Of a DNA stretch of 32,856 nt, positions 1 to 32,856 are shown piece by piece. Source of the DNA: a bacterium (GTDB taxonomy: Bacteria > CSSED10-310 > JAJRTK01); contig JAJRTK010000355.1 in the NCBI GenBank assembly GCA_024278345.1, positions 1 to 32,856 on the forward strand, in the 5' to 3' direction. A model generated the notes under the pieces. The model made no database searches, had not been told where the DNA came from, and saw only the letters and a list, made by a program, of their open reading frames with translations. The stretch's first letter is position 1. Each line of letters opens with the position of its first letter. The position numbers were made by a program, and so were the translations under genes.

Positions 1-233
1 GGACTGTGGAATCGCAAGCGTCCGGGCAACGCCTCGCTATCGCTCGGCGGGTCACGTTTGCGTGACTCGAAGGGTCACGCCGCGCGTTACCCGAAGGTGG
101 TCCGGGGATTCCATCCCCCGTCCCCTGGCAGGGCATCGCCCTGCACCCACCAGGGAGCGCGCTCCCTGGACCCACGTTTTTGTACGCTGCGCGTCTTTTT
201 TTGGGGCGCGTGTCCCGGCTTACGTTGATACCC
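1..233 (+). repeat. Family A hairpin-rich dispersed repeat, copy A1 (left end outside window)
   Basis: This is a chain of short palindromes: GTCACG-TTTG-CGTGAC near 55, GGCAGGGC..GCCCTGC near 126-152, and GGGAGC/GCTCCC near 155. It ends with the family A terminal sequence (TGTCCCGGCTTACG...GATACCC) at 211-233. The opening 100 bases match the reverse complement of copy A4 (26617-26881) closely, but A1 carries an extra GTCACG/CGTGAC hairpin module that A4 lacks. No convincing gene lies in it; the translated peptides (R-P-L-A-G-x-R-P-A-P-T-R) merely recur with the repeat. The remaining 234-313 leads to the BMP gene. Confidence 0.75.
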
Positions 234-16698: not shown

Positions 16699-16871
16699 CC
16701 TGACACCAAACTCCTGTGACGCCTCTGACTCGGCCTCTTCACCACTGGCGGCCTCGGCGGACGGTGCCTCGATCTGCTCCTTGACATCGTCTTCGGTGCC
16801 TGCCTCGCTACGATCCGTGGCGGGATATCCATGATGAAATGTCCGGCCTAGCCCAAAAGCTAGCCAGGGAT
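16699..16871. other. Spacer after the PHA-family gene
   Basis: No complete gene is seen. On the minus strand about 16700-16830 reads as an open, acidic Ala/Glu-rich frame (EDDVKEQIEAPSAEAASGEE) without a start, perhaps a decayed gene end. A weak hairpin (CTAGC..GCTAG) lies near 16850-16862 but lacks a T-run. Confidence 0.35.
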
Positions 16872-16918
16872 TGTCTCATTATGAGACAGTGGGTGGAGAA
16901 CTGTCTCGTTTCGAGAGT
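16872..16918. promoter_or_regulatory. Paired TGTCTC palindromes, candidate activator-binding site
   Basis: TGTCTCAT-T-ATGAGACA (16872-16888) is a perfect palindrome. A second, imperfect one (TCTCG-TTT-CGAGA, 16904-16916, preceded by TG) is centred 30 bases away, about three helical turns. This spacing is typical of cooperative dimer sites, such as enhancers of sigma-54 activators. The protein that binds is unknown. A candidate sigma-54 promoter lies downstream beyond a transposon-like repeat. Confidence 0.5.
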
Positions 16919-16925
16919 ATCTACG

Positions 16926-17219
16926 GGGTATCCACGCAAAGCGGGACAATGGGTCGCCGGGGAAAACACTTGACATCGGGCAGCGCCGCGCTCCGCTCGG
17001 CGGGTCACGTTTGCGTGACTCGAAGGGTCACGCCGCGCGTTACCCGAAGGTCGTCCGGGGACGCTGTCCCCCGTCCCCTGGCAGGACTTCGCCCTGCACC
17101 CACCAGGGAGCTCGCAAGGACCCGTTGCAATGAAAAGCAACGAGTTCCCCACCCACATTTTTGTGCGCTGCGCGTTTTCCTTTTATTTCCAATCTTTGTC
17201 CCGCCTTGCGTGGATACCC
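16926..17219 (+). mobile_element. Family A element A2a: intact 294-bp MITE-like unit with 8-bp target duplication
   Basis: The element starts GGGTATCCACGC and ends GCGTGGATACCC; the inverted repeats are 23 bp with one mismatch. It is flanked by a perfect direct repeat TATCTACG at 16918-16925 and 17220-17227. Inside are the family hairpins: GTCACG/CGTGAC, GGGGAC/GTCCCC, GGCAGGAC..CCTGC, GGGAGCTC and CGTTGCAA..AGCAACG. It encodes no transposase. Eight-base duplications with GG-type ends are known for IS families such as ISL3, IS1595 and IS256, any of which might mobilise it; this is inference. Confidence 0.8.
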
Positions 17220-17290
17220 TATCTACGCAAGGCGGGACAGGTCGCTGGGGAAAACACTTGGCCTCGGACCCCGCCGCGCTTCGCCACTGG
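17220..17290. repeat. Truncated older family A copy A2b, target of the A2a insertion
   Basis: After the direct repeat the sequence continues as a second family A end (CTACGCAAGGCGGGACAGG), then GGGGAAAACACTTGGCCTCGG. This parallels the left interior of A2a (GGGGAAAACACTTGACATCGG) before the similarity fades near 17290. A2a therefore inserted into the tip of this older remnant. Confidence 0.7.
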
Positions 17291-17313
17291 CCCTTATGGC
17301 CCTAGACCTGCAC

Positions 17314-26556: not shown

Positions 26557-26616
26557 AGAGACCCCATCACCCAGTCAGATACCGAAAGGTAATCCGAGGA
26601 CACCGGCCCGGGATTC

Positions 26617-26881
26617 GCGTATCCACGCAAGGCGGGACAGAACAGAAAAAAAAGGAGAACGCGTAGCGTATAAAAACGTGGGCTGGGAGCCCGTTGCTCG
26701 CAAGTTGCAACGGGAAGAGGAGCACGCTCCCTGGTGGGTGCGGGGCGAAGCCCTGCCAGGGGATGGAATCCCCGGACCACCTTCGGGTAACGCGCGGCGT
26801 GACCCGCCGAGCGATAGCGAGGCCTTGCCCGGACGCTTGCGATTCCACGGTCCCGGGAATGTCCCGCCTTGCGTGGATACC
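26617..26881 (-). mobile_element. Family A element A4, intact, flanked by direct repeats
   Basis: The element runs from GTATCCACGCAAGGCGGG to CCCGCCTTGCGTGGATAC, with perfect inner inverted repeats. CCCGGGATTC flanks it directly at 26607-26616 and 26882-26891, consistent with a target duplication of about 8-10 bases. Inside are GTTGC..GCAAC, GGGAGC-type, GGGGCGAAGCCC, GGGGATGGAATCCCC and GGGTAACGC..CGTGACCC modules. It carries no coding sequence of note and closely matches A1 apart from one missing hairpin. Confidence 0.75.
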
Positions 26882-26896
26882 CCCGGGATTCTCATC

Positions 26897-32494: not shown

Positions 32495-32707
32495 GGGGTA
32501 TCCACGTAAGGCGGGACAAAACGAGAAACAAAGAGACAGGCGCGAAGCGCCCCACCACGTGGGTCCAGGGAGCGAGCTCCCTGGTGGGTGCAGGGCAACG
32601 CCCTGCCAGGGGACGGGGGACGGAGTCCCCGAACGACCGCCGAGCAACGCGAGGCGTTGATACGACGCAAGATAATACCGAATTGTCCCGCCTTACGCGA
32701 ATACCCC
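32495..32707 (-). mobile_element. Family A element A5, upstream of pilin 2
   Basis: The element is bounded by GGGGTATCCACGTAAGGCGG and CCGCCTTACGCGAATACCCC, inverted repeats of about 24 bp with three mismatches. It contains GGCGCGAAGCGCC, CAGGGAGCGAGCTCCCTG, GCAGGGCAACGCCCTGC, GGGGACGGAGTCCCC and AACGCGAGGCGTT hairpins in a row. No direct repeat flanks it; its right end meets copy A6. Confidence 0.75.
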
Positions 32708-32712
32708 AGGGC

Positions 32713-32856
32713 GGATATCAACGTAAGCCGGGACACCCGCCAAAACCAAGACGCAACGCGTCGTACATGAATGTGGGCAGGGATCCCGTTGCCCTTCGTT
32801 GCAACGGGAAGTTGAGCGAGCTCCCTGGTGGGTGCAGGGCAAAGCCCTGCCGGGGA
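32713..32856 (-). repeat. Family A copy A6, cut by the window end
   Basis: It starts GGATATCAACGTAAGCCGGG, the same terminal repeat seen at the end of A1, and continues through CGTTGC..GCAACG, GGGAGC-type and GCAGGGCAAAGCCCTGC modules to the window edge. It is head-to-tail with A5. Confidence 0.7.

Follow-up and report, generated by a model that had tools for sequence, protein, structure and literature searches.

Target duplications identify a gene-less repeat with a chain of hairpins as a mobile element in a bacterial genome

The window analysed here, a stretch of 32,856 nucleotides corresponding to contig C285 of the genome of an uncultured bacterium (the source genome, G000; 6,061,821 bases, or 6.06 Mb, in 550 contigs, 87.9% complete), carries a 294-bp unit belonging to a repeat family that we call family A (Table 1). 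The unit reads GGGTATCCACGCAAAGCGGGACAA ... TTGTCCCGCCTTGCGTGGATACCC between two perfect copies of the octamer TATCTACG. Its inverted arms are paired at 23 of 24 nt (96% complementary); a sequence-only reading of the window had given the length of the unit correctly but had set its inverted ends at 23 bp, one base too short. The longest open frame over the unit (16871-17305, 144 aa) crosses both inverted ends, and we do not regard it as a credible gene.

On the right-hand side, TATCTACG runs on as a family end, TATCTACGCAAGGCGGGACA (17220-17239), and the end of this older copy, at 17217-17239, shows 4 mismatches to the consensus end. When the flanks were joined after removal of the unit and of one TATCTACG, 57 of 69 positions were identical to the unit's own left end, with gaps accounting for 3 of the 12 differing positions. 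These data bear out the sequence-only reading in its description of the site: a perfect 8-bp duplication brackets the unit, and the right-hand octamer continues as the end of another copy. Flank joining restores the left end of this older relative, into which the unit jumped. The older copy is truncated, with only about 65 bp left, and the end-motif scan detected no right end for it in the window; it serves as an internal empty site for the 294-bp unit. Since the octamer belongs to the older copy's own end, the nested site alone is not decisive. Additional family A copies are present elsewhere in the window, including two neighbours at 32496-32856, the first without a duplication and the second cut by the contig end.

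Table 1. Positions in the window of the 294-bp unit, its insertion site, its interior hairpins and the other family A copies.
Feature	Positions	Strand	Remarks
Family A MITE, 294 bp	16926..17219	+	Left type L2; modules m1 and m2 present; CAACGAG middle module; right type R2
Left target-site duplication	16918..16925	.	TATCTACG
Right target-site duplication	17220..17227	.	TATCTACG; also bases of the older copy's end
Left terminal inverted repeat, 24 nt	16926..16949	+
Right terminal inverted repeat, 24 nt	17196..17219	-
Left-end remnant of the insertion target, an older family A copy	17220..17284	+	From the joined-flank comparison
Hairpin in module m1	17004..17019	+	GTCACG/CGTGAC; module missing from many copies
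Hairpin H4	17057..17071	+	GGGGAC/GTCCCC; closing pair C-G or T-A, depending on the copy
Hairpin followed by ACCC	17081..17097	+	GCAGGAC/GCCCTGC; one mismatch here; core recurring in some other bacteria
Hairpin of the CAACGAG middle module	17123..17142	+	CGTTGC/GCAACG
Second intact family A copy, 266 bp	26617..26882	-	9-bp duplication CCGGGATTC at 26608-26616 and 26883-26891
Third family A copy, 211 bp	32496..32706	.	No duplication
Further family A copy, partial	32713..32856	.	Cut by the contig end
Further family A copy, right part	1..233	+	Cut by the contig start; right end at 211-233

A genome-wide search for the end motif TGTCCCGCCTTGCGTGGATAC, as the sequence-only reading had proposed, located it 428 times in the source genome when up to 3 mismatches were allowed, the reversed control giving 0, and 318 times with up to 2 mismatches. 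At the latter threshold, the motif was missing from all 59 other genomes searched, including 7 from the same phylum. The exact 21-mer was absent from the genome_contigs collection, a looser form of the motif was absent from viral contigs, the 294-bp unit had no match in plasmids, and comparison of the unit with Rfam gave nothing above gathering scores. Altogether, 1.52 Mb were read as 141 stretches, a non-random sample of the source genome comprising the window, 60 stretches chosen for known copies and 80 unselected ones (contigs C421-C506). Within the 758,365 unselected bases, 1.26% were family A-like and 0.71% resembled a second family, family B, two figures that overlap on account of the sequence common to both families.

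Inverted end pairs with both flanks available numbered 46, and perfect duplications were observed at 17 of them. Nine of these duplications are 8 bp and eight are 9 bp long, so the 8-bp length put forward in the sequence-only reading applies to nine copies and is not strict. In a control in which the left flank of one copy was compared with the right flank of another, a match of at least 8 bases occurred in 1 of 2070 comparisons; intact copies are therefore far from consistently lacking duplications. Three further pairs show an 8-bp duplication with one mismatch, and the remaining 26 have neither; one of the 46, a 3853-bp pair on L157, corresponds to two separate copies enclosing ordinary genes, one of whose frames we take to be SufB-like. 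When only pairs with at most one mismatch in both ends were considered, 8 of 17 were perfectly duplicated. Family A pairs without a perfect duplication may have recombined, lost one side by deletion, or been misjoined by the assembler. Most paired copies are 168-317 bp long, and the duplication-bearing ones have a G+C content of 63%, versus 58% for the sampled genome. Family A thus does not display the AT-richness typical of MITEs, a property that excerpts of PMC10969869 present as usual rather than defining.

We also inspected the joined flanks of the 17 duplication-bearing sites by means of open frames. No clear restored gene emerged for this multicopy family, and the frames in general did not exceed those of frame-shifted controls, for which reason we claim no restored gene at any family A site. 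As none of the 17 sites was shown to lie in a restorable gene, it is the nested insertion that provides family A with a clean empty site. The transposition reading is nonetheless settled by the other family A copies, which carry duplications in unrelated flanks, and the proposal of a mobile unit devoid of any gene is upheld by the 17/46 duplicated pairs and the lack of a credible frame. Taken together, the inverted ends, the many copies and the target duplications lead us to regard the unit, with high confidence, as a MITE: a transposon without genes of its own, mobilised in trans by a transposase of the DDE type that recognises the ends GGGTATCCACGCAAGGCGGGACA. This transposase, encoded elsewhere now or formerly, would make a staggered cut of 8-9 bp, and the copies would have arisen by cut-and-paste or copy-out movement, the hairpin chain inside being perhaps passive cargo or a structural aid.

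Which enzyme moves the unit was addressed by searching the source genome, an 87.9% complete MAG broken at repeats, for eight transposase families. Profile matches were obtained for ISL3 (C5 and C395), IS1595 (C322 and C295), IS1 (C400 and C548) and DDE_Tnp_1 (C373; a fragment that is presumably ISAs1-like, judging from its C-terminus), together with ISKra4 fragments at C17, C481 and C464, all below the curated cut-off; the IS256, IS6 and DDE_Tnp_1_2 profiles had no match in this genome. The ends adjoining these genes were then read by eye, with C395, C481 and C548 falling outside the set and only a likely right end guessed on C373. They start with GGCTCTTCGCC... beside ISL3 and GGCTCTATATGCG... 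beside IS1595, the end beside IS1 on C400 is GGTAGTCCTGATTAGG, and the ISKra4-like ends on C17 and C464 start with GGGTGCGGCTCTTT, which has GGGT in common with family A and diverges from its end after these four bases. Scanning the transposase loci for the ends of families A, B and C located family A ends no nearer than hundreds of bases, where they belong to separate copies. Because the readable ends differ from those of family A, none of the enzymes with readable ends owns the family A ends. Likewise, no IS with matching ends was retrieved, either from the 1.52 Mb or from the neighbourhood of the matched transposases: no autonomous element with family A ends turned up, nor any transposase frame between inverted ends. 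A list of the unpaired ends in the 1.52 Mb, with frames checked at some of these ends, yielded nothing either.

The sequence-only reading had suggested an ISL3, IS1595 or IS256-like enzyme. This suggestion is not supported: the ends read beside the ISL3 and IS1595 remnants are other than those of family A, and IS256 is without a match in the genome. Based on the combination of 24-bp GG...CC ends with 8- and 9-bp duplications, the Mutator superfamily (ISKra4/ISMich2/IS256-type) appears to be the most likely class of enzyme, although this is unproven. According to excerpts of PMC3942029, prokaryotic Mutator-like elements share inverted repeats of 18-39 bp, a terminal C, and duplications of 8 or 9 bp. 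Family A exhibits 8/9-bp duplications and a 24-bp inverted repeat ending in ...ACCC; the agreement is one of type and not of sequence, and the terminal cytosine is a weak criterion, as other IS families may have such ends. We therefore consider, tentatively and with somewhat less than even confidence, that a transposase of the Mutator superfamily moves the unit, the ISKra4/ISMich2 group being the likeliest source, and that its IS was lost, left unbinned or broken in the assembly. The near-equal numbers of 8- and 9-bp duplications (9 and 8 of 17) and the agreement of the GG...CC ends with the shared features excerpted from PMC3942029 support this possibility, as do the ISKra4-like fragments with their GGGT-sharing ends; the sub-threshold scores of every ISKra4 match, the divergence of the ISKra4-like end past four bases, and the fact that the C17 gene is itself split by a unit of another family, family D, argue against it.

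A transposase of the ISL3, IS1595, IS1 or ISAs1 type is an unlikelier mover. These families produce duplications of 8 bp or of 8/9 bp, and transposase matches of these types do exist in the genome, but the adjoining ends differ from those of family A, and the family A ends at those loci are the distant, separate MITEs mentioned above.

Family A is not the only small repeat in this genome, as further families were revealed by de novo k-mer extension. Family B has ends GGCCTCGGTCATGGTACC, a length of 199-201 bp, and 8- or 9-bp duplications in 4 of 6 pairs. Family C, with ends GGGACCTATCA and a length of about 154 bp, shows strict 8-bp duplications in 14 of 20 pairs; examples are found at L065 16842-16994 and L101 136-289, and C ends also occur inside family A copies. 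Finally, family D has ends CTGAGCCATCCCCTCATTT, measures 192-219 bp, and displays 9-bp duplications in 2 of 4 pairs. Two of these insertions interrupt transposase genes. On C5, the ISL3 transposase gene is split exactly by a family B unit (L081 335-535) flanked by the 9-bp duplication GTTCAAGCG; one half of the gene aligns with profile positions 53-161 and the other with 161-235, and a single open frame runs across the joined flanks. On C17, the family D unit that splits the ISKra4-like gene (L262 481-699) is flanked by the 9-bp duplication GGTCTGGGC. Families A and B have unrelated ends and yet share a hairpin chain, over 55-79 bp with 76-89% identity.

The interior of family A is built from interchangeable parts. 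Its copies draw on three types of left end and three of right end, with alternative middle hairpins and two hairpin modules that are optional, and 27 distinct module combinations were counted among 32 aligned copies. The alignment started from the 39 family A pairs measuring 200-330 bp, from which five that could not be oriented were dropped, as were L064 and L071, the latter two for no good reason. The three middle modules and the three right ends occur in all nine combinations. Restricting the comparison to 14 duplication-bearing copies, the other 3 of the 17 falling outside the alignment, still yielded 11 distinct combinations, and five marker pairs displayed all four two-state combinations. 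Mosaicism in family A may be partly an effect of assembly: assuming a short-read metagenome assembly, the interior of a many-copy repeat may have been wrongly chosen even where both flanks are right. In the 70 matches to the GGGGAC/GTCCCC hairpin in all sequence read, the closing pair is C-G in 36, T-A in 29 and another pair in 5, showing that the stem is kept while its sequence changes. Folded as single-stranded DNA, the unit reached a z of -6.4 relative to shuffled sequences, 0 of 200 of which folded as well, a strength due in good part to the inverted ends.

The hairpin core GCAGGGCNNNGCCCTGCACCCNCCAGGG was detected 128 times in the source genome and in 0 of 385 other sampled genomes. In a named collection, it was present in at least 53 stretches, with Magnetococcales, Desulfovibrionaceae, Rhodospirillales, Acetobacteraceae, and Clostridiales or related Firmicutes represented among the matches listed. 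Inspection by eye of 26 of these at least 53 loci disclosed no family A ends around the core. In several inspected loci (L209-L261), the core with its ACCC spacers seems, by eye, to lie shortly past a gene end. The recurrence of the core in distant clades may reflect common descent, transfer or convergence of hairpin repeats. Literature searches with the letters of the chain motif returned, among the matches listed, no paper on such a repeat by title or abstract, and those for hairpin repeats in Magnetospirillum or Desulfovibrio found only unrelated work. One might regard the chain as a structure-conserved cassette that travels between transposon families, the MITE being one of its vehicles. 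We think this rather unlikely, even if several observations are in line with it: A and B carry the same chain between unrelated ends, left ends, hairpin modules and right ends combine almost freely among the copies, paired changes preserve the stems, and the core turns up in a few distant clades with no family A ends around it in the loci inspected.

Spread by recombination, or by slippage of replication at the hairpins, with octamers that are coincidental or parts of the repeat, is very improbable: the copies are indeed mosaics of interchangeable modules, and the octamer at the nested site does fall within a family end, but such a process is at odds with the 17/46 duplications in unrelated flanks set against 1/2070 in controls, and with the 8/9-bp duplications that families B and C also show. 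Least credible of all is an assembly artefact, namely the misjoining of short reads from a many-copy repeat. Of 150 contig ends in the unselected set (L129-L208), 65 lie in families A, B or C, compared with 5 of 320 inner samples; the assembler evidently struggled at these repeats, which account for much of the genome's fragmentation. The order of interior modules in single copies could be affected, but misjoins would not create matching 8/9-bp duplications on both sides.

We conclude that the target duplications show that a chain-of-hairpins repeat moves as a transposon, and that family A is a new MITE family, with a few hundred units in this genome. Of greater interest is the wider pattern, in which four families that differ in their ends live side by side and insert into one another as well as into transposase genes, with a shared hairpin cargo and mosaic copies. 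If the mosaicism is real, this genome offers a system for asking how hairpin modules swap between copies, and also why GC-rich hairpin chains accumulate in some bacteria.

Several known elements resemble family A in part, as judged from excerpts of the papers that describe them. The p-MULT elements (IS256/ISH6/ISLre2/ISKra4; PMC3942029) are like it in their 8/9-bp duplications, the length of their ends and the terminal G/C; unlike it, they encode their own transposase, and none with family A ends was found here. The Chunjie MITE of Geobacter uraniireducens (via PMC10969869) is gene-less, 178-235 bp long, with conserved inverted ends and direct repeats. It is present in tens of copies, mostly intergenic, alongside many partial ones (38 copies with conserved ends and 57 partial, versus 428 end motifs here), whereas the interior of family A, a chain of interchangeable GC-rich hairpin modules, sets it apart from Chunjie. 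In the pneumococcal BOX, RUP and SPRITE repeats (PMC10969869, PMC3049150), likened here by description only, several small families inhabit one genome and insert into each other, as in the present case; the difference lies in families A and B, which have an interior hairpin chain in common despite unrelated ends. By contrast with family A, whose hairpin modules form no tandem array, the 19 copies of the BrickBuilt MITE of Porphyromonas gingivalis (PMC4596501) contain a tandem 23-nt minisatellite, although both place a repetitive interior between short inverted ends.
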